From Brucella rhizosphaerae (GTDB lineage Bacteria; Pseudomonadota; Alphaproteobacteria; Rhizobiales; Rhizobiaceae), in contig NZ_NNRK01000029.1 of assembly GCF_002252475.1 (NCBI RefSeq), positions 186,001 through 250,000 on the forward strand: a DNA stretch of 64,000 nt, read 5' to 3'. Every line of letters starts with the position of its first letter. The first letter of the stretch is position 1. Shown in pieces: positions 2,144 to 64,000 of this stretch. The position numbers and the translations under genes are program-made. The notes under the pieces were generated by a model. It saw nothing but the letters and a program-made list of their open reading frames with translations. It was not told where the DNA came from and ran no database searches.

Positions 2144-3526
2144 ATGGCATTTAAGATGGCCCCCAGGGGAAGTACGCCCCCTGCACAGCATGATGTCACA
2201 TTTGAAGGCTGGCGTCGTGATCGCGGCGAAGCGTCCATGTCTGACGTCCACCGCTCGATCAGAGTCAACCGATCCGGCTCAAAGTTTCGTCGCGCGATGG
2301 CGTTCTTTGGCCCCGGTTATCTCGTTGCGGTAGGTTACATGGACCCCGGCAACTGGGCGACATCTCTGGCTGGCGGCTCACGCTTCGGCTATATGTTGCT
2401 GTCGGTTGTGCTCATTTCCAATCTCATGGCTGTCCTTTTACAGGCACTTTGCACCCGCCTTGCAGTCGCCACAGGCCGCGATCTAGCACAGGCCTGCCGC
2501 GATGCCTATCCCCGTTTCCTGGCCTGGCCTTTGTGGCTGCTGGCAGAACTCGCCATTTGCGCAACAGACCTGGCAGAAGTCATCGGCACGGCTATTGGCC
2601 TCAATCTTCTGTTCGGAATTCCACTGGAAATCGGTGTTATTCTGACAGCTGCCGATGTGCTTCTTGTTCTTTATTTGCAGAATAAAGGCTTTCGACGCGT
2701 CGAAGCGCTTATCATCACGCTGTTGGCGGTGATTGCACTCTGCTTTCTCATCCAGATTTTGATGGCCGAACCCAAATGGGGCGAAGTGATCCGTGGTTTT
2801 GCACCGACCACCGAGATCATCCGAAATCCGGACATGCTCTATATAGCGCTCGGTATTATCGGCGCGACGGTGATGCCGCATAATCTCTACCTGCATTCAG
2901 GCATCATCCAAACTCGCGATTATGGTCACACCTTACCGGAGAAGCGTGAAGCGATCCGCTTTGCGACGCTCGATTCCACGATCGCCCTCACTTTCGCGCT
3001 GCTGGTTAATGCCTCAATTCTGATCCTTGCCGCAGCAAGTTTTCACGCAACTGGCAATACCGGTGTCGAAGATCTCGACAAAGCTCATGCTTTGCTCAAT
3101 CCCCTGCTTGGCTCGGCATTGGCGCCTACTCTCTTTGCAATCGCGCTTCTGTGCTGCGGTCTCAATTCGACGATCACCGCGACGATGGCCGGTCAGATTG
3201 TGATGGAAGGCTTTATCGATATTAAGTTGAAGCCCTGGCTTCGCCGCGCCATTACGCGTTTCGTAGCGATTGTGCCTGCTGCTATCGTCACGATTATGTA
3301 TGGCTCGCAGGGGACCACAGAACTTTTGATCCTGTCACAGGTCGTCCTCAGCCTGCAGCTTCCTTTTGCAATCATACCATTGGTGATGTTCACTGCAGAA
3401 AAAAAGAAGATGGGCGCTCTGGTTGCGCCGCGCTGGGTGACAATTCTCGCAGCAGTTACCGCCGCAATCATCGTCGTTTTGAACATGAAACTCATCTACG
3501 ACTTCTTCATGGGCATGCCGATGTAG
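2144..3526 (+). CDS. mntH: NRAMP-family manganese transporter MntH
   Basis: Proton-coupled divalent metal importer of the inner membrane, usually Mn2+ in this group. Counting from the ATG at 2144 the product is 460 residues with about 11 membrane segments. The two metal-site signatures are present: DPGN in the first helix (about residues 67-70) and MPHN in helix 6 (about 244-247). The N-terminus is about 45 residues longer than in enteric MntH, so ATG 2156 or the Met of [10 protein letters not shown] further in remain possible starts; ATG 2144 lies downstream of the predicted transcription start. Regulation by manganese is suggested by the palindrome over the promoter. It sits alone, divergent from the cell-division operon. 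Confidence 0.93.
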
Positions 3527-3564
3527 ACGTGCCCATGTAGAAGTGCACATGTAGAAAAAGAAGT

Positions 3565-3988
3565 GTCAGTCGGTCTGTAAGCCGGGTTCTGTATGGCCGG
3601 ACTTGCGTCCAACGTGGCAGCCATTCATCTGGGACGGATGTCGCCACCCGCCTCTTGCAACCCACCCGGACGGCTGATCCGGAAACTGATTACCAGTCCT
3701 TACGGACTGATGCGCCGTCCCTATTCGGTTTTGCTCCCAGTGGGGTTTACCGTGCCGCCTGTGTTGCCACCGGCGCGGTGGGCTCTTACCCCACCCTTTC
3801 ACCCTTACCCCGTCATCCCTGCCGCCTCAAAAAAGCGGTACGGAAGACGGGGCGGTCTACTTTCTGTGGCACTATCCCTGGGGTCACCCCCGCCGGGCGT
3901 TACCCGGCACCGTATTTCCATGGAGCCCGGACTTTCCTCACCTGCCGCCTTTCGGCATATGACAAGCGCGGCTGCCCGACCGACTGAC
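3565..3988 (-). ncRNA. rnpB: RNase P RNA (bacterial type A)
   Basis: Catalytic RNA of ribonuclease P, which matures tRNA 5' ends. On the minus strand the 5' part contains GAGGAAAGTCCGGGCTCCAT (complement of about 3920-3939) and the 3' part contains ACAGAACCCGGCTTACAG, the two universally conserved blocks of the P4 core. The ends GTCAGTCGGTC and GACCGACTGAC pair to form helix P1, which sets the limits at 3988 and 3565, about 424 nt. A -10 box TATACA (complement of 3995-4000) is placed correctly for a start at 3988. Open frames crossing this interval on either strand are not genes. The neighbours are mntH and a lytic transglycosylase gene. Confidence 0.96.
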
Positions 3989-4192: not shown

Positions 4193-4864
4193 TTAAAGTC
4201 CGGCCATATAGGACTTAACCGAGCTGCAATACTTCGCAGAGGTCGGGTTCATGCGCTTGGCACCGTGGCCGGCATTGTACTTGAGGATCGTGCCGCAGGT
4301 GCTGCCGCCGCCAAGCTTCTGTGCCATGGCAAGATACTTCATGCCGAACTGGATGTTTGTCGAAGGTTCATAGAGGCCTTTGGCCGAACCGGTGTAACCC
4401 AGACCGCGAGCAGTCGAGAGCTTGATCTGCATCAAGCCAATTTCACCGGCCTTGCCGCGAACGTTTGGCTGGAAATTGCTTTCGTGACGAACAACCGCAT
4501 GGGCCAGCGAAGAAGATACGCCGTAAGTTGCCGCATAACGATTGATGATTGGGGAATAACCTTTGCCACCCTGAGCGGACTTTGAAGTCTCGCCTTGAGC
4601 CTTGGAACGCTTTGCACTTTTAGCGGTTGGTGCAGCACGACTGGTGATGACCGAAACCTTCCTGGGTGTCTGCCTCTGTTCTGCCTGTGCTGCGCGAGAT
4701 GCCTTATCAGACTTGTTGGTTTCAGCAGCCTTACTCTGTGCCCGTGCTTTGAAAAGAGCTGCGAGATTGGTTGGCTCATTAACTGGAGCACTCATCGCAG
4801 AATTCAGGCCAAAAGAACTCATTGCGCCAATGAGGGCGCATACAACAACAAATTTTACTTTCAT
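4193..4864 (-). CDS. Secreted lytic transglycosylase (SLT domain)
   Basis: Cleaves the MurNAc-GlcNAc bond of peptidoglycan with formation of an anhydro product. A signal peptide (residues 1-26, cleavage near AMSA-PV) is followed by a low-complexity Lys/Ala/Ser linker to about residue 100 and an SLT domain (about 103-205). The catalytic Glu is E128 in VRHESNF; GLMQI (143-147) and KYNAGH (195-200) are the other family motifs. The 223-residue protein is a small single-domain member. It is transcribed towards rnpB and lies near an amidase gene, so this stretch is a peptidoglycan-remodelling neighbourhood beside the dcw cluster. Confidence 0.9.
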   Translation of the reverse strand: MKVKFVVVCALIGAMSSFGLNSAMSAPVNEPTNLAALFKARAQSKAAETNKSDKASRAAQAEQRQTPRKVSVITSRAAPTAKSAKRSKAQGETSKSAQGGKGYSPIINRYAATYGVSSSLAHAVVRHESNFQPNVRGKAGEIGLMQIKLSTARGLGYTGSAKGLYEPSTNIQFGMKYLAMAQKLGGGSTCGTILKYNAGHGAKRMNPTSAKYCSSVKSYMAGL

Positions 4865-5184
4865 AACCTACCGTCTTGGATCGTTTTTATGGGGCTTTGC
4901 TGGTCTTGGGGGCAGCATCGCCGTTTATTTATGATCCCGCTCGACAAGCATTTTGCCCGCCCGTCACCGCTGGGAATGGCAGATCATTTGCTGGGGAAAT
5001 GCAGCCGAAGATTGGTTAGGGAAGTAAAATAGTCTTACAGGTTGTAATAAAGGCTGTCACATTCCGTGATGCGAGCCACGGTGGAAGAGCGCTACCATCT
5101 AAAGCTGCGATTGCTTTAATTTAATGAAATTACTACAGAAATATGAATGCGCAGATATGCTTATGTGCCAACCACCATGCGCAC
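4865..5184. other. Intergenic region upstream of the lytic transglycosylase gene
   Basis: 320 bases without a gene. It contains a 25-base element at 5027-5051 (AAATAGTCTTAC-N5-GTAATAAA) that recurs at 7738-7762; see the findings. The remainder shows nothing I can name. Confidence 0.5.
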
Positions 5185-5991
5185 TCAAGCGGTAACGTTT
5201 TGCAATGAAAAAATCAGCCTGTAGAGGGTATCTATAGTAGACACATCCGCTACACCGTCCACATTGTGTGGCCGAAAATGTCGCTGAAACGCCTTAATCA
5301 CGGTTTGTGTGGCCTCATCGAACACGCCATTGATCTCGATTTTATAGCCGTAAAGGGCGAGCATGGACTGCAAAGCCTCTACTGGCTGGCCCTGTTCACC
5401 ACGTGCAAGAAAGCGGCCACCCCGGATCGGCGTCGGTTCGATGTAATGGCCAATGCCTGCTTCATGCAATCTTTTCCATGGGAAGTTGTGCCCCGGATCG
5501 GTCTTGCGCTCTGGCGCAATGTCGGAATGCGCAAGAACGTTCTCCGGCCGGATTTCATAACGTCCGCATATGCTGCGGCACAGCTCGATCACGGATTTGA
5601 TCTGCTCGTCTGCGAAAAGCGGATAATTTCCGAGATCACCCGGGTTTACAATCTCGATGCCGATCGAAGCCGAATTGATATCGGTCTCGCCCTTCCAGTA
5701 GCTTTGGCCCGCATGCCATGCCCGTGCCTTTTCAGACACCATCTGAACGACACGGCCATCTTCGTGAACGAGATAGTGCGCAGACACTTCCCGCTCTGGA
5801 GACTTGAGCACGTCCAAAGCTTCTTCAGCTGTTGCCAGCCCGGTATAATGCAAAATCAGGAAGGTCGGCGTCTTGCCATCACGGCGCGGACCAAAATTCG
5901 GTGACGCATCAAGCGACGCAGTCGGATAGTCAGGCGTTTCCAGCGACAATTCCACTATGAGCTTTTCCTGCATTGAGTCTGCGTTGCTCAT
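5185..5991 (-). CDS. N-acetylmuramoyl-L-alanine amidase (Amidase_2) with peptidoglycan-binding domain
   Basis: Zinc amidase that removes peptide from muramic acid, AmpD/AmiD type. The 268-residue protein from ATG 5991 has the amidase fold at about residues 40-180 with zinc ligands H48 (ILHYT), H155 (AHSDIAP) and D165 (KTDPG), then a PG_binding_1 repeat at about 200-255 (QSMLALYGYKIEINGVFDE). No signal peptide is evident, so it may act on cytoplasmic anhydro-muropeptides, or be exported unconventionally. The start overlaps the stop of the upstream djlA-like gene (ATGA arrangement at 5988-5991), so the two are an operon. A longer frame to 6024 would overlap that gene more and is disfavoured. 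Confidence 0.9.
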   Translation of the reverse strand: MSNADSMQEKLIVELSLETPDYPTASLDASPNFGPRRDGKTPTFLILHYTGLATAEEALDVLKSPEREVSAHYLVHEDGRVVQMVSEKARAWHAGQSYWKGETDINSASIGIEIVNPGDLGNYPLFADEQIKSVIELCRSICGRYEIRPENVLAHSDIAPERKTDPGHNFPWKRLHEAGIGHYIEPTPIRGGRFLARGEQGQPVEALQSMLALYGYKIEINGVFDEATQTVIKAFQRHFRPHNVDGVADVSTIDTLYRLIFSLQNVTA

Positions 5992-6698
5992 GCGGTCTCC
6001 AATTGTTTTTCGACACTCGCCCATGCGGCATTGATTGCAGCAAGACGCGCGTTAGCGATATTGATAAATTCCAGCGGAAGACCTTCCGCAAAAAGCCTGT
6101 CCGGATGGTGCTCTTTCACCAATGAACGATAGCGTTTACGGGCGTCCTCAAAAGAAACGCCGCGTACCAGCCCGAGAATGGCATAAGGATCGGCCTCACC
6201 GCGATTGACGTGTCGCAACGCGATGCGTTCAAAGCTTTCCTCGTCAAATCCGAAAATCTCGGCAACGCTCGACAGAAAAGCCATTTCCTTGTCGTGCACA
6301 TAGCCGTCGGCGGTCGCGATATGAAAGAGGCCGTCCAGAATATCTTCAAGCAGATGACAGTTCTCATCACCTTCTCGGCAGAGACCTGCAAGCTGACGAG
6401 CATAGCTCTCGTAACCCGCCACATCCTGTTGAGCCAGATTATACAAGCGCACCACATGAGCGTTCTCTTCCGGCGGCACTGAGAAAATGCTCTGGAACGC
6501 CCGAAACTCATCCTGCGTAACCACACCGTCCGCTTTAGCCATCTTGGCTGAAAGTGCGATCATCGCAATCGAGAATGCAACGCGCCTGCGTGTATCCGCG
6601 TCGCCTTCAAAAACCGTTCGCACAGCCTCGATAACGCTTGAAATAGCGCTCAGCGTGACGGAGGTGACAAATTCACCAATGCGGACCCAGATCGACAT
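5988..6698 (-). CDS. djlA: DjlA-family co-chaperone (TerB-like + J domain)
   Basis: Probable DnaK co-chaperone. The first 40 residues are hydrophobic to amphipathic without a clear membrane helix. A TerB-like all-helical domain with its acidic KADGVVTQDEF and TADGYVHDKEM repeats covers about residues 40-165, and a C-terminal J domain covers about 170-236 with the HPD tripeptide at 198-200 (KEHHPDRL), which stimulates DnaK ATPase activity. The overall architecture matches alphaproteobacterial DjlA/DjiA proteins. It is translationally coupled to the downstream amidase gene. Confidence 0.88.
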   Translation of the reverse strand: MSIWVRIGEFVTSVTLSAISSVIEAVRTVFEGDADTRRRVAFSIAMIALSAKMAKADGVVTQDEFRAFQSIFSVPPEENAHVVRLYNLAQQDVAGYESYARQLAGLCREGDENCHLLEDILDGLFHIATADGYVHDKEMAFLSSVAEIFGFDEESFERIALRHVNRGEADPYAILGLVRGVSFEDARKRYRSLVKEHHPDRLFAEGLPLEFINIANARLAAINAAWASVEKQLETA

Positions 6699-6797
6699 GA
6701 ATCGTTTCTATATAATTCCGTAAAGGCTGGAAACAACAACCCGTTGCAATCGACGAAAAAACAATAATTTAGAAGAATATGCGCTTCGCAGAGATAA

Positions 6798-7232
6798 TTA
6801 TTGCGCGGCCTGGCGCGCCTCAAATGAACGCTGTGCGGCAGCTACCGCCGCTTCGCCTGCTGCCTGAACCTGTTCAGCACTTTGACCAACGGACTTTGCC
6901 GCGGCTTCTGCATTGCTGCGTGCCCGTTCGATAGCTGCTTTCTGCTCTTCAGCTGTCATAACGCCGGAATTGTCCTGCAAAGCCTTGATCAGATCGGGCC
7001 CTGCCGGCTTATCTGTGTCCGGTGCGGCAGTGGTTTGCTCTGGCTGAGCTGGCGCAGCAGCCTGCTCATCCTCTCCTCTGCCACAAGCAGCAAGGGCAAC
7101 AAGAACAATAGCGGAAATCAGAAACAGAAAATGACGGCTCATAATGAAAGACATAACTGAAGAAAGCCTGCGTTTGAACATGGAAAACGCAGTTTTGTTG
7201 TCTTTATCGACAATCACTGCATAATTATCCAT
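6798..7232 (-). CDS. Putative lipoprotein of unknown function
   Basis: The product has a hydrophobic segment ending in a lipobox (IVLVALAAC) followed by an Ala/Glu/Gln-rich helical tail with TAEEQKAAIERARSNAEAAA, which looks like a coiled coil. I recognise no catalytic motif. Two starts compete: ATG 7232 has an excellent ribosome site (AAAGGAG, 8 bases upstream) but puts about 30 residues before the signal sequence, whereas ATG 7142 (MSRHFLFLIS) gives a textbook lipoprotein signal peptide with no visible ribosome site. I keep 7232 on the strength of the ribosome site. It is followed upstream by another small lipoprotein gene in the same direction. Confidence 0.6.
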   Translation of the reverse strand: MDNYAVIVDKDNKTAFSMFKRRLSSVMSFIMSRHFLFLISAIVLVALAACGRGEDEQAAAPAQPEQTTAAPDTDKPAGPDLIKALQDNSGVMTAEEQKAAIERARSNAEAAAKSVGQSAEQVQAAGEAAVAAAQRSFEARQAAQ

Positions 7233-7545: not shown

Positions 7546-7937
7546 GATGGCTCTCCTTCCCTAGAATTCAGCGCTGCGGGGATATAGCCAACGCTGTTTT
7601 GGTTTCCGTGCCTGACCGATTTATCCGGTCAATCACCTTACGAAGACAATCGTCACATCGCTCTTAGTCCCCGGCGATGCTTTTCGACGACGCCAACGTC
7701 ACATCAGAAAACGGCGAGGATGCGGAAAGGTTCTCTCAAATAGTCTTACGGCCCGTAACAAAACGCCATAATAACAAAGTGGTAACTATATTTTCCCGGC
7801 AATAGACCCGTCACGCCCCTGTCACCGGCGAATGCTTAACTTAGTCAAACAAGATTGGATTCGCCTTCCAAGCGTCGCGCATCTTGCTCAAAATCGTTCA
7901 GATTTTCGGATGCGCTCAAAAATACGGGGAGCAGGGA
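7546..7937. other. Divergent intergenic region, lipoprotein gene / btaA
   Basis: 392 bases. It holds the second copy of the TTAC-N5-GTAA element (7738-7762) and a PhoB box (7808-7825) in front of btaA. No coding sequence or RNA gene is visible. Confidence 0.6.
7808..7825 (+). promoter_or_regulatory. PhoB (Pho) box upstream of btaAB
   Basis: CCGTCAC-GCCC-CTGTCAC is a direct repeat of a 7-mer with 11-base periodicity. It matches the rhizobial Pho box CTGTCAT-N4-CTGTCAT at 11 of 14 repeat positions. It lies 113 bases before the btaA ATG. DGTS synthesis in Sinorhizobium is induced by phosphate limitation through PhoB, so sequence and target agree. Confidence 0.72.
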
Positions 7938-9173
7938 ATGACAGGACAAGATGCCAATGGCACGATCCTCAAGCGCGCTGTCACACAAAACCATATGCTT
8001 TCGCGCGATGGCATTTCCGAAAGACTGTTCGCGTGGCTCTTCAAGGGATTAGTCTACCCGCAAATATGGGAAGACCCCGAAGTGGATATGACCGCGCTTG
8101 CGATTAAGCCCGGTGATCGCATCGTGACTATTGCTTCAGGCGGCTGCAACGCTCTCTCTTATCTTACGGCTGACCCAGCTTCTGTTGAGGCTGTCGATCT
8201 CAACAGCGCCCACGTTGCCTTCAACCGCCTCAAACTTGGTGCTCTGAAGCATCTTCCCGATTACGCCAGCTTCTATCGCTTTTATGGCAAAGCCGACGAC
8301 AAGGCCAACCTGGCTGCTTATCAGCGCTTTATCCGTCCGCATCTTGATGGCGAAAGTCGGGCCTACTGGGAAAAGCGCAAATGGAGCGGTCGCCAGCGCA
8401 TCTCGATTTTCTCGCGTGATCTTTATCGTCACGGACTTTTAGGCGTCTTCATCGGCATGGGCCATCGCGTGGCTCGTCTCTATGGTATCGACCCGCGTGA
8501 CATCCTCAAGTCCAGGACGATGGAAGAACAGCGCACTTACTTCGACACCGCCCTCGCCCCGCTTTTCGAAAAGCGTATGGTGCGCTGGGCAACAGCGCGC
8601 AAATCATCTCTGTTTGGCCTCGGCATTCCACCTCAGCAATATGATGCGCTGGCAACCGCCGGAAACGGCGACATGGCGTTCGTCCTGCGCGCCCGGCTTG
8701 AGAAACTTGCCTGTGCATTTCCTCTCACTGAGAACTATTTTGCCTGGCAGGCTTTCGGCCGCGGTTATAGCGGCGATGAAGAGGCTGGCCCCTTGCCGCC
8801 TTACCTCTCAAGGTCAAACTTCGACACCGTTCGCGCCCGCGTTGATCGCATGACTGTGCGTAATGCCAATTACACGGAATTCCTCAGTCAGAAGCCAGCC
8901 GGGTCGGTGGACCGCTTCGTCCTGCTTGACGCACAAGACTGGATGAATGACGCACAGCTTAATGCACTCTGGAGCGAAATTAGCCGAACTGCTGCTCCGG
9001 GCGCACGTGTCATCTTCCGGACTGCTGCGGAACCGAGCCTGCTACCTGGCCGGATAGATCCATCGATCCTTGAACACTGGCACTATCGCGAGGAAGAATC
9101 CCGTCTGCTGCATGATCGCGACCGCTCTTCCATCTATGGCGGCTTTCACCTCTACGTTTTGAAAGGGGCGTGA
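7938..9173 (+). CDS. btaA: S-adenosylmethionine:diacylglycerol 3-amino-3-carboxypropyltransferase BtaA
   Basis: First step of betaine-lipid synthesis: transfers the 3-amino-3-carboxypropyl group of SAM to diacylglycerol, giving diacylglyceryl homoserine. The 411-residue protein belongs to the DUF3419 family; IVTIASGGCNALSYL (about residues 62-76) is the SAM-binding loop, followed by VEAVDLN (about 83-89), and conserved WxKRKW and LLDAQDWM blocks. I start at ATG 7938 (MTGQDANGT), preceded by GGGGAG, instead of at the frame opening at 7884. btaB follows after one base. A PhoB box precedes the operon, so phosphate starvation is the expected inducer. The product replaces phospholipid when phosphate is scarce. 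Confidence 0.9.
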   Translation: MTGQDANGTILKRAVTQNHMLSRDGISERLFAWLFKGLVYPQIWEDPEVDMTALAIKPGDRIVTIASGGCNALSYLTADPASVEAVDLNSAHVAFNRLKLGALKHLPDYASFYRFYGKADDKANLAAYQRFIRPHLDGESRAYWEKRKWSGRQRISIFSRDLYRHGLLGVFIGMGHRVARLYGIDPRDILKSRTMEEQRTYFDTALAPLFEKRMVRWATARKSSLFGLGIPPQQYDALATAGNGDMAFVLRARLEKLACAFPLTENYFAWQAFGRGYSGDEEAGPLPPYLSRSNFDTVRARVDRMTVRNANYTEFLSQKPAGSVDRFVLLDAQDWMNDAQLNALWSEISRTAAPGARVIFRTAAEPSLLPGRIDPSILEHWHYREEESRLLHDRDRSSIYGGFHLYVLKGA

Positions 9174-9174
9174 C

Positions 9175-9867
9175 ATGTCTGCCAATCCCCGACGATTCCC
9201 GGGCCAGGCTCAAGGTATCGACCACGCCAGCCTGATGGACAGGGTCTATCGGCGGCAGCGCCATTTCTACGATGCCACACGCAAGTATTATCTTTTGGGC
9301 CGCGATCCGATGATTGCGGGATTAAATGTACCGGCAGGCGGCAATGTGCTCGAAATCGGCTGTGGTACAGGGCGCAATCTCGTCAAAGCCGCAGAGAGCT
9401 ATCCGGACTCGTTACTTTTCGGCATCGATATTTCAGCCGAAATGCTGGAAACCGCGCATCAGGCAGCAAAGCGTGCTGGCATTGCAGACCGCACCAGACT
9501 TGAACGGGCCGACGCCACACATTTTGATCCTGCTGCCCTCTTTGGCCAAAGCAGCTTTGACCGTATCTTCATTTCGTATGCGGTTTCGATGATACCGCAA
9601 TGGCAGTCGGTTATTCAGGAAAGCATCCGTCATTTAAAACCCGGCGGCGAGTTGCATATAGTCGACTTTGGCGATCAGAAGAGACTGCCATACGTCTTCA
9701 AAAAAGCACTTTTCAAATGGCTTGAATGGTTTCATGTCACGCCGCGCGATGATCTCTTCAATGTCGCAGAGAGGCAGGCGTCAGAACAAAGTGCCACTGT
9801 CGAGCGAAAAACTCTGCATCGCGGCTTTGCCTGGATAGCCGTCATTCGTGCCGAAAATGCCGGGTAG
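9175..9867 (+). CDS. btaB: Diacylglyceryl homoserine N-methyltransferase BtaB
   Basis: Second and last step of DGTS formation: three SAM-dependent N-methylations of diacylglyceryl homoserine. The 230-residue class I methyltransferase has motif I VLEIGCGTGRN (about residues 58-68), the acidic GIDIS (83-87) and a post-motif LKPGGELHIVDFG. Its ATG follows the btaA stop by one base, so expression is coupled. On sequence alone it could be a generic methyltransferase, but the tight btaA linkage and the RQRHFYDATRKYYLLGRD N-terminus make BtaB the best call. Confidence 0.88.
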   Translation: MSANPRRFPGQAQGIDHASLMDRVYRRQRHFYDATRKYYLLGRDPMIAGLNVPAGGNVLEIGCGTGRNLVKAAESYPDSLLFGIDISAEMLETAHQAAKRAGIADRTRLERADATHFDPAALFGQSSFDRIFISYAVSMIPQWQSVIQESIRHLKPGGELHIVDFGDQKRLPYVFKKALFKWLEWFHVTPRDDLFNVAERQASEQSATVERKTLHRGFAWIAVIRAENAG

Positions 9868-10992: not shown

Positions 10993-12237
10993 ATGAAAAT
11001 TATAGCTTCAGTGATGGCTACTGCCTTGCTGGCATCGACTGTAATATCTGGTGCCCAATCTGACGCAAAGGCCTCCGGTTCTCCCGCACTGGCAGCCAGC
11101 GCCGACAGTACCATCAACTTGCCGAAGCCAGAATGTGAAACTGACTATGGTCAGTGGATGGACAATCTGACCAAGGAATCCCGCGAAGCAGGTGTTGGCG
11201 AAAAGGGAATTGCTGAGCTGCATAAGGCGTCGCTCGAACAGAGAGTTCTTGATCGCGACCGCAAGCAGACCGTCTTCAATCTGACCTTCACTGAGTTTTC
11301 CAGGCGCCTCATCTCGGAAGCGCGCCTGAAGAATGGTCAGAGCAATCTGGTCAAATATGCCGATGTCTTCAAGAAAGTCGAAGACACCTATGGCGTACCG
11401 GGCCCGGTACTTGCCGCTTTTTGGGGTTTAGAAACCGACTACGGCGCTATTCAGGGTGATTTTGACACGCTCAATGCACTCGTGACGCTTTCTTATGACT
11501 GTCGCCGTCCGGATCTTTTCCGTCCGCAGCTGATCGCTCTTCTCAAGCTTTTCGATACCGGTGTTGTCGATGCTGCCACAACGGGCGCATGGGCTGGCGA
11601 AATCGGCATGATGCAGCTTCTGCCCAAAGATTATCTGGAGCGCGGCGTCGACGGAGACGGCGACGGCAAGGTCGATCTGAAGAACAGTGTTCCCGATGCA
11701 ATGATGACCGCTGGCCGTATGATTTCCGAACTTGGCTGGAAGCGTGGCGAGCCGTGGCTCGAAGAAGTACGCGTCACCAAGGATTTGCCTTGGGAAGAAT
11801 CCATCCGCACCAATCGCAAGCCACATTCATGGTGGGCTGAGCAAGGTGTGGTCGGGCTTAAGGGCCCACTGGGTCCGGATGACGGCGACGCATCGCTTCT
11901 GCTGCCACTGGGTCGCAAAGGTCCTGCTTTCCTGTCCTATCCGAATTTCGATATTTTCGTGGAATGGAACAAGTCGATCGTATACGCGACGACGGCCGCC
12001 TATTTCTCCACCCGCCTTGCTGGTGCTCCAGCCTTCAATCCCGGCAATCCTGATCAGGGTTTGACGCAGGAACAGATGAAGGAACTGCAGACCAAGCTTC
12101 AGGCTCGCGGCTACGAGATGGGCAAGATCGACGGCGTATTCGGCGTGCTGACACGCGATGCCGTTCGCACCGAACAGTTGCGTCTCGGAATCCCTGCCGA
12201 TTCATGGCCAACGCCTGAACTGCTTGAAAAGCTCTAG
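10993..12237 (+). CDS. MltB-type lytic murein transglycosylase with PG-binding domain
   Basis: Periplasmic lytic transglycosylase of the SLT_2 family. From ATG 10993 the 414-residue product has a signal peptide (MKIIASVMATALLASTVISG), the catalytic domain from about residue 50 to 340 with catalytic E147 in FWGLETDYG, and a C-terminal PG_binding_1 repeat (LQARGYEMGKIDGVFGVLTR). WAGEIGMMQLLPKDY and the YPNFDIFVEWNKS block are typical. A GTG 12 bases upstream (10981) is an alternative start closer to the GGGGAG at about 10959; I prefer the ATG for its signal peptide. No lipobox is present, unlike E. coli MltB. Confidence 0.9.
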   Translation: MKIIASVMATALLASTVISGAQSDAKASGSPALAASADSTINLPKPECETDYGQWMDNLTKESREAGVGEKGIAELHKASLEQRVLDRDRKQTVFNLTFTEFSRRLISEARLKNGQSNLVKYADVFKKVEDTYGVPGPVLAAFWGLETDYGAIQGDFDTLNALVTLSYDCRRPDLFRPQLIALLKLFDTGVVDAATTGAWAGEIGMMQLLPKDYLERGVDGDGDGKVDLKNSVPDAMMTAGRMISELGWKRGEPWLEEVRVTKDLPWEESIRTNRKPHSWWAEQGVVGLKGPLGPDDGDASLLLPLGRKGPAFLSYPNFDIFVEWNKSIVYATTAAYFSTRLAGAPAFNPGNPDQGLTQEQMKELQTKLQARGYEMGKIDGVFGVLTRDAVRTEQLRLGIPADSWPTPELLEKL

Positions 12238-13410: not shown

Positions 13411-13664
13411 ACGAAGAGGCAAAAAGCCAATTCTTCGGTTCAAGCCGGGCCAAAATTGGCGCTTTCGTGGCATTTTCATGAAATGTGAACAAATTTTTAC
13501 AGTCAAAAATTTCAATGACTTAGCTGGTAAACAAAAGGTTTTTTTCCCTATCACCGCTTATTGCAGTACGAAATGTTCTTTTGTTTAGACCAATTTGCGC
13601 TTAGATTCCGGTTCTCTACCAGCGCGTACCCGGCCTCGTCGGGTGCATATAAGGAGACAGACCA

Positions 13665-13751
13665 ATGGGACTTACGCGATCTCTGAATGTCCTCATGATC
13701 TGTGCAGCATTCGCATTTGTTGCAGCGTTGATAGCAGGCGTTATTCCCTGA
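13665..13751 (+). CDS. 28-residue single-span membrane peptide
   Basis: A tiny gene with a strong ribosome site, AAGGAGA, 7 bases before the ATG. The product begins MGLTRSLN and continues with about 19 uniformly hydrophobic residues (VLMICAAFAFVAALIAGVI) to a terminal Pro, so it is a predicted one-pass inner-membrane peptide with a basic N-terminus. It is followed at 13827 by a good intrinsic terminator shared with metF on the other strand, which supports a separate short transcript. No function is known to me. Confidence 0.6.
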   Translation: MGLTRSLNVLMICAAFAFVAALIAGVIP

Positions 13752-14772: not shown

Positions 14773-15782
14773 TAGACTGTCTCCGTTATGCTTACACGTT
14801 GCGGCGCTGGATCGGCAATCAGCAAGCGTGGGTCATTGGCAAGCCAAAGCTTGACCGTCAGTCCATCGTCGCCATTTGCAGCCTTTGGCCCCAATTCTGT
14901 CGTCTTGGCAGGTTCAAGCCCTGCATCTTTCATCCATCCCAGCATTTGCTCATCGCTGAAGCCGAGCCTGAGATGCGCATGTTCCTCGCGTAGGAACTCA
15001 AGTTTGTGCGGCGCAAAATCAACGATCAGCAAGCGTCCACCCGGACGAAGCGCACGCGCCGCCTCACGAATTGCTGCGAGCGGATCATCAAGAAAATGCA
15101 AGACCTGATGGATCGTGACCAGATCAAAACTCTCGCGTTCGACGGGTAACGCATAGACGTCGCCCTGCCGCACCTGTGCATTGCCTACCGATGCGAGATC
15201 GAGATTGGCACGTGCCACCGAAAGCATGTCGCGATTGATATCGATGCCCAATCCGCGCACATAAAGCGGTGAGAAAAGCTCCAACAACCGACCTGTGCCC
15301 GTACCGACATCAAGCATGGCCTGAAACTGCCTGTCGCCGATGATGTTTTTAAGCGCTATTTCCACTGCATTTTCGGAAACATGCAGCTTACGAATTTCAT
15401 CCCAGCTACCAGCATTGGCACTGAAATAAGCTGCCGCCTTTTCCTGACGGCTGGATTTAACCTGCGAGAGCCGCTCCATATCGCGTTCAATCAGGGGATC
15501 AGATGCATCGAGCCGCAACAGCAAATTGCGTGCAACTTCACTGCAAAGCGCATTGTCAGACAGCCGGAAATAGGCCCAGGCGCCTTCCTGATAGCGATCA
15601 ATGAGATCAGCTTCGCCCAACAGCTTGAGATGACGCGACACACGCGGCTGCGACTGACCCAGAATTGTGGTCAGGTCCGACACCGTGAGATCACCCTTGG
15701 AAAGAAGCGCAAGGATGCGCAAGCGGCTTGGTTCTGCCACTGCTTTTAACACATCCACCATCTGATCGAGCTGCAAGCGCAA
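14772..15782 (-). CDS. ArsR-type regulator fused to a SAM-dependent methyltransferase
   Basis: An N-terminal winged-helix ArsR/SmtB domain (about residues 5-90, VLKAVAEPSRLRILALL and QSQPRVSRHLKLL recognition helix) is joined to a class I methyltransferase (motif I LDVGTGTGRLLEL, then GIDINRDML and LRPGGRLLIVDF). The start is uncertain: TTG 15782 has GGAG 8 bases upstream; ATG 15761 (MVDVLKAV) is the alternative. The absence of the usual cysteine metal-binding motif in the recognition helix argues against metal sensing. Its coupling to metF suggests that it responds to SAM or S-adenosylhomocysteine; that is an inference. A palindrome 27-46 bases upstream of the start is a plausible autoregulatory site. 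Confidence 0.85.
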   Translation of the reverse strand: MRLQLDQMVDVLKAVAEPSRLRILALLSKGDLTVSDLTTILGQSQPRVSRHLKLLGEADLIDRYQEGAWAYFRLSDNALCSEVARNLLLRLDASDPLIERDMERLSQVKSSRQEKAAAYFSANAGSWDEIRKLHVSENAVEIALKNIIGDRQFQAMLDVGTGTGRLLELFSPLYVRGLGIDINRDMLSVARANLDLASVGNAQVRQGDVYALPVERESFDLVTIHQVLHFLDDPLAAIREAARALRPGGRLLIVDFAPHKLEFLREEHAHLRLGFSDEQMLGWMKDAGLEPAKTTELGPKAANGDDGLTVKLWLANDPRLLIADPAPQRVSITETV

Positions 15783-15808
15783 TTCGCAATCTCCATACAC
15801 TTCTAAAG

Positions 15809-15828
15809 ATATAAAGATATGTTTATAT
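15809..15828. promoter_or_regulatory. Candidate operator of the ArsR-MT/metF operon
   Basis: ATATAAA-GATATG-TTTATAT: two perfect 7-base inverted arms around a 6-base spacer, directly upstream of the ArsR-type gene. Its size and dyad symmetry suit a winged-helix dimer. Which protein binds is not shown by the sequence. Confidence 0.5.
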
Positions 15829-16040
15829 GAAGTGGCGATTACGCGCAAGCGATTTTCGTACTGCGATACACAGCAAAGCTATGCCCCCGATTAAGGAAGG
15901 CGTTTGAGCTGGATAACAACAAGGTTATGATTATTGCGAATCTTGCTTCGAGCGCCCTAACGTATTGAATCTATGCATCGCCCTTTCCGGTATCGATTCT
16001 GGTTTTTGGGCAAATACTACAGCGTGAAAGGAAGACGGCT

Positions 16041-46751: not shown

Positions 46752-46887
46752 AAGCATGGTATCCAGTCAATGATATATAGGCGTGCGCAGACGGACAGTC
46801 CATCACGCACAAGCGGCCCTCCCCGCTAATCACATGTAGCAAGCCTCTTAATTACAATGATTACATACGGTCGCGACCTTCATAAAA

Positions 46888-46905
46888 CTGTCATATAGTT
46901 GTCAC
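46888..46905 (+). promoter_or_regulatory. PhoB (Pho) box upstream of the Na/Pi symporter
   Basis: CTGTCAT-ATAG-TTGTCAC: two 7-mers with 11-base periodicity matching the rhizobial consensus CTGTCAT-N4-CTGTCAT at 12 of 14 repeat positions, the first unit perfectly. It lies 149 bases upstream of a phosphate transporter gene, the expected PhoB target. Confidence 0.8.
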
Positions 46906-47053: not shown

Positions 47054-48730
47054 GTGAACGGTTCTCTGGTCCTTTTGCATCTTGCTGGTGCAGTCGCGCT
47101 CCTGCTCTGGGCGACACGCATGGTGCGAACAGGGGTGGAGCGTGCCTACGGCGATCGTCTGCGACGCCGCCTGCGCAACCAAATGCAAAACCCGCTGCTT
47201 TCGATAGCTTTTGGCCTTATTCTGGCAATTGCCTTGCAAAGCTCGACGGCGGTCACACTGCTGGTCGGCTCCTTTGTCGGGTCGGGAATTGTCAGTGGCG
47301 TTGCGGGCCTGATGGCCGTGCGCGGTGGTGAGCTGGGTTCAGCACTTGTCGTGAAAATCCTGAGCTATGATCTGACGCTGCTGGTGCCGCTCTGCCTTGT
47401 TTCAGGCACCGCAATTTTCATGACCACAGAGCGACGCGACTGGCGACAGATCGGGCGCATTCTGGTCGGCATCGGTTTGCTCATCATGTCACTGGAAATG
47501 ACAGGACAGGCGACAGAACCACTGCGTCAGAGCGAACTTCTGCCCGTCATCGTGGATTATCTCTCAAGCGATCCTGTGACCGCCTATCTGCTGGCAGCAT
47601 TGATGACGTGGCTGTTTCATTCAAGCATCGCTGGCGTAATCCTGCTGACCACTTTCGCATCGCGCGGGCTGATCACACCGGAACTTGCGGTGGTTATGGT
47701 ACTTGGCGTCAATCTTGGTTCGTCAATTATCGCGCCGATCCTGACCCGTAACGCACCGCCCGAAACCCGTGTCGTACCGCTTGGCAATCTTTTGATGCGC
47801 GGCGCCGGTTCGCTGCTTATGCTGATCCTGTTTGAGACTTTCAAGCCGTCGATTGGTTTCCTTGGTGGCGACGCGGTTTCGCAGGTGGTCAACGCCCACA
47901 TTCTTTTCAACGTCATAGTCATGGTTGCAGGCATTCCGTTGTCTGGACTGGTGCTCCGCGCAACGGAAGCGCTGGTTCATCTCAATTCGGACAAGAACGC
48001 ACCCGCCCAGCCGCTTGAAGTCGAAGAGTACAGTGCTCTTGATAATGCCGTCCTTGACCGACCTTCACAGGCGCTCGCCAATGCAACGCGCGAAGTCGTC
48101 GGCGTCTGCGATACAATTGAAGTGATGTTGCGTCGGATTATCGATCTCTACGAAAAGCCAGATCAGGCACGTATCAACGAACTCGCAAGCCTTGACGACC
48201 GGGTCGATAAGAAGCATGCGGCCATCAAGCTTTATCTCACCAGGCTCGCAGCCAAAGACCTCGATGAGTTCGAAGCTTTGCGGATGCAGGAACTGATGGG
48301 TGCATGTGTGAAGCTCGAACAGGTTGGTGATATCATCGTACGCAACATGCTCGCGCATGTTCAGAAGAAGATGGATCACAACCTCGAATTCACTGAGGAA
48401 GGCTGGAAAGAACTGAGCCACTTCCACGCGATGGTGCTGGCCAATGCGCATATGGCATTCAATGTCATCGTCTCGCGTGATGGTCGCACCGCACGTCTGC
48501 TCGTACAGGAAAAAGACAATCTGCGTGATCTCGAAAAACAGACGAGTATGCGCCACTTCTCGCGGCTTCGCGAAGGTTCAACCCGCAGTATTGAGACAAG
48601 CACCATCCATCTCGATACGATTCGCGATCTTAAACAGATTAATTCGCTGCTTGCATCCATGGCCTATCCAGTCCTTGAAGAACAAGGATTGCTCGGCTCT
48701 ACGCGCTTGAAGTCAGTGAAACAAAACTAA
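47054..48730 (+). CDS. Na+/phosphate cotransporter family protein with PhoU-like tail
   Basis: Inner-membrane phosphate symporter of the NptA/PNaS family. The 558-residue protein has about nine hydrophobic segments to residue 310, with the two signature inverted QSSTAVT-type motifs (ALQSSTAVTLLVGSFVGSG near residue 60; LFHSSIAGVILLTTFASRG near 190), then a C-terminal all-helical PhoU-like domain (about 345-540). The start is GTG 47054 with GAAAGGA upstream. A PhoB box precedes it, so induction by phosphate limitation is expected. It is divergent from dnaG. Confidence 0.9.
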   Translation: MNGSLVLLHLAGAVALLLWATRMVRTGVERAYGDRLRRRLRNQMQNPLLSIAFGLILAIALQSSTAVTLLVGSFVGSGIVSGVAGLMAVRGGELGSALVVKILSYDLTLLVPLCLVSGTAIFMTTERRDWRQIGRILVGIGLLIMSLEMTGQATEPLRQSELLPVIVDYLSSDPVTAYLLAALMTWLFHSSIAGVILLTTFASRGLITPELAVVMVLGVNLGSSIIAPILTRNAPPETRVVPLGNLLMRGAGSLLMLILFETFKPSIGFLGGDAVSQVVNAHILFNVIVMVAGIPLSGLVLRATEALVHLNSDKNAPAQPLEVEEYSALDNAVLDRPSQALANATREVVGVCDTIEVMLRRIIDLYEKPDQARINELASLDDRVDKKHAAIKLYLTRLAAKDLDEFEALRMQELMGACVKLEQVGDIIVRNMLAHVQKKMDHNLEFTEEGWKELSHFHAMVLANAHMAFNVIVSRDGRTARLLVQEKDNLRDLEKQTSMRHFSRLREGSTRSIETSTIHLDTIRDLKQINSLLASMAYPVLEEQGLLGSTRLKSVKQN

Positions 48731-63260: not shown

Positions 63261-63283
63261 AAGGGGCCGAAAGGCCCCTTTTT
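63261..63283 (+). terminator. Terminator of aatA
   Basis: AAGGGGCC and GGCCCCTT form a stem around GAAA, followed by TTTCG. Confidence 0.85.
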
Positions 63284-63327: not shown

Positions 63328-63441
63328 AAAAAAAAAGCCAGACAAATGTCTGGCTTTGAGTTTTGAAGGTGCCATTGAGGCAAACCTCCAGAGGGGAACA
63401 CTCAGCCTGCGCAAATGGGAGGAGGAAACGCAGCGCTGAGA
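63328..63441 (-). ncRNA. Candidate trans-acting small RNA with CCUCCUCCC segment
   Basis: On the minus strand a -10 TATAAA (complement of 63448-63453) is followed by a start near 63441, then TTTCCTCCTCCCATTTG (complement of 63412-63428), a second C-rich loop GTTCCCCTCTGGAGG (complement of about 63386-63400), and an intrinsic terminator AAAGCCAGAC/GTCTGGCTTT followed by nine Ts (complement of 63328-63356). Length about 114 nt. A free CCUCCUCC that pairs with ribosome-binding sites, and a Rho-independent end, are hallmarks of alphaproteobacterial regulatory RNAs of the AbcR/MmgR kind. The family is not certain. Confidence 0.6.
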
Positions 63442-63680
63442 TGACCTTTATATGCCTTGTGCTCATTGTTTTTGCAATGCAACTTTATAGCAATACAGCC
63501 ATGCGTTTTTTGCATAGCTAAAAAATCAGAAAAACATAAATAAATTCATACGCTTACTGATTAACCACTGAATCATTATTCGATATCAGCCCTATAAAGA
63601 CCGCCCAAACAGCAGGCAGATTCAAGCCTGCCTTGCCTGTAAAAACAGCAAATCACTTCCAGTGGCAACATTCACAGGGG

Positions 63681-63720
63681 CTGTCACGAAACTATCACCG
63701 CGCTGCATCGAACCTGTCAC
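63681..63720 (+). promoter_or_regulatory. Phased Pho boxes upstream of the metallophosphoesterase
   Basis: Four 11-base-phased units: CTGTCAC (63681), CTATCAC (63692), CTGCATC (63703, degenerate) and CTGTCAC (63714). The first pair, CTGTCAC-GAAA-CTATCAC, matches the rhizobial Pho box at 11 of 14 repeat positions. It ends 100 bases before the gene start. Confidence 0.72.
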
Positions 63721-63820
63721 AGAAGAGGCATAGAAGCCCTCGCAAGGCCGCAGCTATCCCCGATGAATGCCCAAAACGGCACGTGCTGCGCGCACCCCTT
63801 ATTCAAGAAGGAGCGCCACC

Positions 63821-64000
63821 TTGCGTATCGTTCAGATTACAGACACTCACCTCAGCCCTACCAAGTCGCACTTCAACAGCAACTGGTCTCCATTGGTCGC
63901 GTGGGTCGAACAGCAGAAGCCGGACCTTATCATTCATACAGGTGACTTGACCGTCGACGGAGCCGATGTCGAAGCTGACCTGGTTTTCTGCCGCGACCGT
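63821..64000 (+). CDS. Metallophosphoesterase, N-terminal part (cut by window edge), PlcP-like candidate
   Basis: 60 codons from TTG 63821, with AAGGAG 7 bases upstream, remain open to the window end. MRIVQITDTHLSP has the first metal motif D8-x-H10 and LIIHTGDLTVDGAD the second (G41-D42), both diagnostic of calcineurin-like phosphoesterases. Sinorhizobium PlcP, a PhoB-induced phospholipase C of this superfamily, releases diacylglycerol from PE and PC so that BtaA can make DGTS. The upstream Pho boxes and the presence of btaAB make PlcP a good guess, but substrate specificity cannot be read from 60 residues. Confidence 0.8.
   Translation, partial: MRIVQITDTHLSPTKSHFNSNWSPLVAWVEQQKPDLIIHTGDLTVDGADVEADLVFCRDR

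Follow-up and report, generated by a model that had tools for sequence, protein, structure and literature searches.

The Ugp system (UgpBAEC with UgpQ) is a PhoB-controlled importer of glycerol-3-phosphate and glycerophosphodiesters. In Phaeobacter sp. MED193, growth without phosphate upregulates 11288, a predicted phosphodiesterase, together with the SBP 11293 and the ABC ATPase 11308 (PMC10132767). The delta-phoB mutant yielded no detectable 11288 or 11308, and the SBP still rose in it, at 0.01% versus 0.47% relative abundance (PMC10132767). Another relevant gene is plcP, whose frequent neighbors are glycosyltransferase genes, agt among them, or btaAB (PMC4796936), with LpxH serving as an outgroup to PlcP (PMC9239053); in Sinorhizobium meliloti, SMc00171 is called phospholipase C (PMC3596328), and sinI and sinR are SMc00168 and SMc00170, respectively (PMC5596199).

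The window analyzed here is a 64-kb stretch (G000:C21:186001-250000) of the 4.9-Mb Brucella rhizosphaerae genome, which is assembled in 36 contigs, and ends with the 5' part of a metallophosphoesterase gene (63821..64000, + strand). The continuation of the contig (L003, C21:248000-262000; the window position is the L003 position + 61999) completes this gene (L003:1822-2673, to the window-equivalent position 64672) and reveals a five-gene order, phosphoesterase-ATPase-permease-permease-SBP, in which the ATPase gene occupies L003 positions 2670-3848, the first permease gene ends at 4773, and the second permease gene (4784-5605) and the SBP gene (5639-6904) follow, all four assigned by Pfam and NCBIfam matches. 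The phosphoesterase, 283 aa from a TTG start, matches PF00149 with 64.5 bits, so that the gene downstream of the array is indeed a calcineurin-like phosphoesterase, as originally described. The TTG codon at 63821 (L003:1822) aligns with ATG, GTG or TTG starts of the relatives (alignment A1), and an in-frame ATG 54 bp upstream would give a protein of 301 aa. Reading of the sequence identifies a Shine-Dalgarno motif AAGGAG (63808..63813, +), a similar motif being present in most of the genus loci, and a terminator-like hairpin GGGGCC-GAAA-GGCCCC-TTTTT (63263..63283, +; absent from the mechanical scan) after the aminotransferase gene, which makes a separate promoter for the operon probable.

The original prediction described four 11-bp-phased Pho units ahead of the metallophosphoesterase gene, and scoring confirms both the repeat and the degeneracy of its third unit. 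The units CTGTCAC (63681, 7/7), CTATCAC (63692, 6/7), CTGCATC (63703, 4/7) and CTGTCAC (63714, 7/7) are spaced by exactly 11 bp throughout; the first two form Pho box 1 (CTGTCAC-N4-CTATCAC, 63681..63698, +, 13/14, conserved in the genus), and the last two form Pho box 2 (63703..63720, +), with the 11-bp phase retained. When scored against the consensus CTGTCAY-N4-CTGTCAY (14 scored positions for two units, 28 for four), the array reaches 24/28, the top value of the whole window with both strands scanned, compared to maxima of 18 to 20 in 50 first-order Markov shuffles of the window and 20 in 3000 shuffles of the 580-bp intergenic stretch; at periods from 7 to 16 other than 11, the best four-unit score is 16. 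Just three positions of the window have a two-unit score of 13/14, namely 7808 (upstream of btaA), 46888 (upstream of the Na/Pi symporter gene) and 63681, against a shuffle expectation of 0.1 per window on average (30 shuffles). With one mismatch allowed, CTGTCAY-N4-CTGTCAY yields 14 sites (two of them overlapping) in the 4.9-Mb genome, compared to a single site for the reversed control pattern; the 64-kb window accounts for 3 of the 14. A cruder scan of the window with three mismatches is unremarkable (7 sites; shuffle mean 3.96; at least 7 in 16 of 100 shuffles). The other exact matches to CTRTCAY-N4-CTRTCAY in the genome are located at C27:388704, within a cytochrome-oxidase-like frame named by eye, and at C27:865325. 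Also outside the window, two overlapping one-mismatch boxes at G000:C27:289804-289832 make up a three-unit 11-bp array.

A -10-like element, CATAGA, is located 8 bp past unit 4 (63729..63734, +), where it would serve the same promoter, so that CTGTCAY-like direct repeats, the 11-bp phase and an adjoining -10 element, the features of a PhoB promoter, all come together here. The array is therefore a predicted PhoB-activated promoter, with PhoB presumably binding and regulating it in B. rhizosphaerae.

In the genus sample, 30 of the 35 genomes match the enzyme (G366 only as pieces with stops), and the 28 loci compared (L173-L200) cover all genus genomes whose best match is unbroken, apart from the genome of the window. 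The four-unit array is found at p <= 0.01 in all 28 of these intact loci, with the window's own not counted, which come from close relatives and hence are not independent. The third unit is degenerate across these loci too, often NTGCANC, and the array is followed at a constant distance by a CATAGAAG/CCTAAAAG-like sequence or its variant; the -10-like element there is CATAGA, CCTAAA or a variant, its spacing from the array unchanged. Across Rhizobiaceae, 70 of 394 genomes match the enzyme; the best 30 places, together with five plasmid loci and the locus of the window itself, provide 36 upstream regions, of which 16 reach 12/14 and 21 reach p <= 0.01, the remaining 15 missing this threshold under the strict consensus, compared to 0.5% of 800 random 300-bp control pieces from other loci that reach 12/14. 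Many of the Rhizobiaceae upstream regions contain a CTAAAGA-type -10-like element and, in many, a CTGTTAC-N4-CTGACAT-type variant precedes CTAAAGA (the upstream alignment took 12 of the 36 loci). Taken together, the shuffles, the reversed-pattern control and the conservation in the genus rule out a chance repeat.

AbcR RNAs silence ABC-transporter mRNAs. The ar15 small RNA, which we take to be of the AbcR type, is detected with 76.2 bits between the aminotransferase gene and the operon (63329-63442, -), and a second copy is located at G000:C8 (L002). Upstream of the enzyme gene, 25 of the 28 genus loci contain a blastn match to the window copy. Elsewhere, the window contains a bacterial RNase P class A RNA (3562-3987, -), a match to the Rhizobiales sRNA Atu_C9 (13642-13733, +) and a single open frame that combines an ArsR-type HTH with a SAM methyltransferase domain (14775-15848, -).

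A search of solved structures with the profile of the enzyme family identifies 2dxl/2zo9 first (3e-8), along with 3d03; these entries, titled 'Phosphohydrolase', presumably represent GpdQ. LMO2642, Rv0805, a dimetal phosphatase and Mre11 follow, with no LpxH among the 11 solved-structure matches. In alignment A1, which includes 22 of the 30 search loci L101-L130 (L113, L115, L117, L118, L119, L121, L124 and L128 were left out), L003, and five near and four distant named loci, the residues D8, H10, D42, N74, H152, H194 and H196 are invariant, and we equate them with the seven metal ligands of GpdQ. The PF00149 domain contains DxH, GD, GNHD, H and GHxH, which we take to be the ligand motif set of class III metallophosphodiesterases. 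The protein begins at the first metal motif and thus has no room for a signal peptide. The cyclic-nucleotide phosphodiesterases CpdA and SpdA were rejected as identities, given that the scores (43.7 of 225 bits for CpdA and 41.3 of 400 bits for SpdA) fall far below the NCBIfam equivalog cut-offs. These results suggest that the protein probably is a GpdQ/CpdA/Rv0805-type phosphodiesterase with a binuclear metal center, located in the cytosol, the activity being a prediction from the sequence. A search of its own genome retrieves only the enzyme itself at E <= 0.001; several genomes of the genus encode paralogues with 34-50% identity, three of which are flagged with a stop, and among viral contigs, 7 stretches fit a pattern, none of them encoding a relative of the enzyme.

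The remaining four genes of the operon encode a complete CUT1 ABC set, namely an SBP, two permeases and a MalK/UgpC-type ATPase. The best NCBIfam models for these proteins are UgpC, UgpA, UgpE and UgpB, all of them below the equivalog or subfamily cut-offs (81.9 of 411 bits for UgpB, 143.7 of 335 for UgpA, 113.5 of 297 for UgpE and 370.3 of 432 for UgpC). A canonical UgpB (495 bits) that shares 20% identity with the operon SBP is encoded elsewhere in the genome, which implies that the operon importer is an additional system; on these grounds, canonical Ugp was rejected as an equivalog. A UgpQ-type GDPD was not found in the operon, where the phosphodiesterase-type gene is that of the PF00149 protein. 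For the SBP, the strongest solved matches are sugar-binding proteins, and the E. coli UgpB structure aligns over residues 25-418.

Analysis of the genomic contexts reveals a consistent association of the two parts of the operon in Rhizobiaceae. The ATPase gene directly follows that of the enzyme in 29 of the 30 best Rhizobiaceae loci and in 24 of the 28 genus loci; the annotations of Sinorhizobium sp. B11, Phyllobacterium sp. 628 and Rhizobium rosettiformans show the identical gene order, and BLAST labels make it recognizable on unannotated plasmids of S. meliloti LMB1 and Neorhizobium. The four exceptions in the genus (L191, L197, L198 and L200), which may reflect one event, retain the promoter and the enzyme gene and lack the transporter genes at the locus; next after the enzyme gene comes a LysR-type gene resembling that located beyond the SBP gene in the window's contig. 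These four genomes have no SBP orthologue, and a relative with 41% identity is present in two only. Thus, the enzyme can serve without this importer. SBP orthologues (85-100%) were detected in 3 of the 13 genus genomes searched, all three with an intact enzyme gene. No description of the rhizobial operon was found in the literature searched, most subscription papers being outside that search.

Beyond these genomes, four of the six distant named loci (A. ampelinum, R. johnstonii, R. mucosa and Pseudosulfitobacter) have the full importer next to the enzyme, with the genes arranged differently; in Tritonibacter, only the ATPase is labelled next to the enzyme, and in Dietzia, genes for an ABC ATPase and an SBP are located about 4 kb away, beyond insertion-sequence genes. 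The Pseudosulfitobacter locus (L134) contains a matching gene set in a divergent arrangement, the order of which is consistent with the MED193 locus tags, and each strand carries a box-like site (11/14, p=0.008; 12/14, p=0.004). Among the 10 distant upstream regions scanned on both strands (20 tests), only L154 (p=0.034) and R. mucosa (p=0.036) also fall below 0.05, each with a site on one strand, with no significant box upstream in A. ampelinum, R. johnstonii, L158 or Tritonibacter. A class-wide search matches 28 of 385 genomes; of the 31 further places outside the B. rhizosphaerae genome, 20 were read, and of these, two have an SBP and permeases of the operon kind beside the enzyme, three have other ATPase pairs, and the rest have no such importer labelled. 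The link to the importer is thus strong within Rhizobiaceae, becoming patchy outside the family. In A. ampelinum and R. johnstonii, PHP-domain 'histidinol-phosphatase' genes (L135:7847-8722 and L137:7952-8827, respectively) directly follow the enzyme gene and perhaps account for the next hydrolysis step. Seven class-wide matches are located in open frames of 689-871 aa, and in L170, L171 and L172, the enzyme domain belongs to frames of about 690-760 aa in which it is possibly fused to another domain.

In the original prediction, the gene at the window end was proposed as a possible plcP that completes a lipid-remodelling circuit, PlcP being an intracellular phospholipase C that turns PE/PC into diacylglycerol for DGTS synthesis by BtaAB. 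The setting invites this assignment: the protein belongs to the metallophosphoesterase family, its gene is preceded by a Pho array, and the window also contains, about 54 kb away, btaAB with a Pho box of its own. A box at 7808..7825 (+, 13/14) precedes a btaA-type gene (7884..9170, +, PF11899, 378 bits, putative start codon) and a gene with methyltransferase domains (9175..9864, +), which by position and size would be btaB, and a three-unit array (46877..46905, +; 5, 7 and 6 of 7, with 13/14 for the two units at 46888) precedes a Na/Pi symporter gene with PhoU domains (47054..48727, +; PF02690, PF01895, NCBIfam NF037997 above the cut-off). The boxes at btaAB and the symporter are thus real, as proposed, and all three loci, including the phosphoesterase operon, likely belong to the Pho regulon. 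In addition, on a Roseomonas mucosa plasmid (L136:1091-7843), a PlcP-like gene and a methyltransferase gene are located directly upstream of the importer and metallophosphoesterase genes, the PlcP-like product showing 49% identity to a B. rhizosphaerae protein encoded on contig C18, so that a PlcP-like gene does adjoin a distant version of the operon. Nevertheless, the identification as PlcP is hardly credible. The full-length protein, completed beyond the window, belongs to another phosphoesterase subfamily than the LpxH-type one of PlcP, an outcome that the original prediction itself had named as refuting, and its neighbors are ABC-importer genes rather than the genes for non-phosphorus lipids that are common, albeit not universal, next to plcP. 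A better candidate is available in the same genome, which contains eight PF00149 matches, seven of them above the cut-off: the C18 locus (G000:C18:404025; L008:1471-3386), outside the window, consists of an LpxH-type PlcP-like gene (L008:1471-2328) followed by a gene for a GT4-family glycosyltransferase, a pair that resembles plcP-agt. All nine solved-structure matches of the C18 protein are LpxH chains, its closest named match is from Brucella pituitosa (98%), and its family profile aligns with that of the window enzyme over only 71 N-terminal columns; judging from its sequence, it is likely the PlcP-like protein of this genome.

The kinship of the C18 protein to the S. meliloti PlcP rests on synteny in the genome G257, which we class as Sinorhizobium-like on account of the 86% identity between its version of the window enzyme and the S. 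meliloti one. There, the gene for a relative of the C18 protein (67%) adjoins a malic-enzyme gene, with a sinR-like gene of the LuxR-type autoinducer-binding kind one further. That the relative of the C18 protein, not that of the window gene, is located near these genes is indirect evidence against orthology of the window gene with SMc00171. SMc locus tags are chromosomal, and the S. meliloti relative of the window enzyme (59% identical) sits on a 1.82-Mb plasmid. Upstream of the plcP-like genes, a two-unit box of 11-13/14 is present in 19 of 21 relatives (L016-L036), with 12 or more in 13 of the 21, only 10/14 in B. rhizosphaerae and two close relatives, and 11/14 in three Sinorhizobium-like genomes; overall, the box reaches 12 in 15 of 72 loci, 8 of the 80 having been left out on account of a short flank (alignment A2 contains nine chosen sequences, with L059 dropped because of a stop in the stated range). 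Lipid remodelling may still occur given the Pho boxes of btaAB and the symporter, and a PlcP-BtaAB route may exist in this organism, with a different PlcP encoded outside the window; what does not hold is the assignment of the PlcP step to the window gene.

Two further alternatives accept the phosphodiesterase and differ in its relation to the importer. The main substrate of the enzyme might be an endogenous phosphodiester, for instance a head-group diester released by membrane turnover, a cyclic nucleotide or an oligonucleotide, with the importer being a separate partner that does no more than share the promoter. The four genus loci that keep the promoter and the enzyme without the importer are compatible with this possibility, as is the fact that the best NCBIfam matches are the cyclic-nucleotide phosphodiesterases CpdA and SpdA, albeit far below the cut-offs; given the pairing with the importer ATPase in nearly all Rhizobiaceae loci and the full importer beside the enzyme in most of the distant named loci, we consider it unlikely. 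Less probable still is that the importer carries a phosphate-free sugar and is driven by the array only incidentally: the SBP is of the CUT1 sugar type and its best solved relatives bind sugars, but a dedicated, conserved Pho array with a phosphodiesterase as the first gene speaks against such a cargo, and so do UgpB as the best NCBIfam match and the alignment of the solved E. coli UgpB with nearly the whole SBP.

Thus, the genes at the end of the window probably constitute a PhoB-controlled operon for scavenging of organic phosphorus that combines a Ugp-like importer with a cytosolic, phosphodiester-cutting metallophosphoesterase. Behind this reading are the observed array, its conservation, the gene order, the protein families and the conserved metal-motif residues; the substrate, and that the enzyme cleaves the imported material, we infer. 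Upon exhaustion of phosphate, PhoB would bind the 11-bp-phased units beside the -10 element and switch the operon on; the importer would then take up an organic phosphodiester, for which a glycerophosphodiester or similar head-group diester is the most likely candidate, and its cleavage by the enzyme into an alcohol and a phosphomonoester would replenish the phosphate pool. More tentatively, it is possible that, across Rhizobiaceae, a metallophosphoesterase has replaced UgpQ, non-orthologously, next to a PhoB-driven CUT1 importer, in a dedicated uptake-and-cleavage system for a diester other than that of the canonical Ugp system of the genome, which the importer-less lineages, having retained the enzyme behind the same array, would recycle from their own membranes. 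The loci with the promoter and the enzyme only offer a natural comparison for the enzyme acting alone. If the operon is as proposed, a good part of Rhizobiaceae (70 of the 394 sampled genomes match) would possess a further, uncharacterized phosphate-starvation route for organic phosphodiesters. The analysis also corrects a plausible misreading, in which a Pho-controlled calcineurin-like gene is taken for PlcP, the likely PlcP being encoded on another contig.

Among the known systems, PlcP (S. meliloti SMc00171 and the marine proteins) shares with the window enzyme the metallophosphoesterase superfamily and the control by phosphate starvation, whereas the window gene shows no kinship with LpxH and has no agt, glycosyltransferase or btaAB neighbors. 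The similarity to GpdQ and Rv0805/CpdA includes the PF00149 domain, profile matches over about 200 residues and the positions of the metal motifs; however, the similarity to GpdQ is weak (36 bits by profile), and the CpdA and SpdA cut-offs are far off. The MED193 genes 11288-11308, which can be likened to the operon by their labels and gene order, similarly include a phosphodiesterase, an SBP and an ATPase that are induced without phosphate in a largely PhoB-dependent manner (PMC10132767), but the arrangement in the marine relative L134 is divergent, in contrast to the single-direction operon in B. rhizosphaerae. The Ugp system has in common with the operon a Pho-box promoter, a CUT1 importer for which UgpC, UgpA, UgpE and UgpB are the best models, and a phosphodiesterase-type gene; it differs in that the four subunits here are below the cut-offs, the PF00149 gene comes first with no UgpQ-type GDPD, and the canonical UgpB is encoded separately. 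Most probably, then, the operon follows the principle of Ugp and employs another enzyme.
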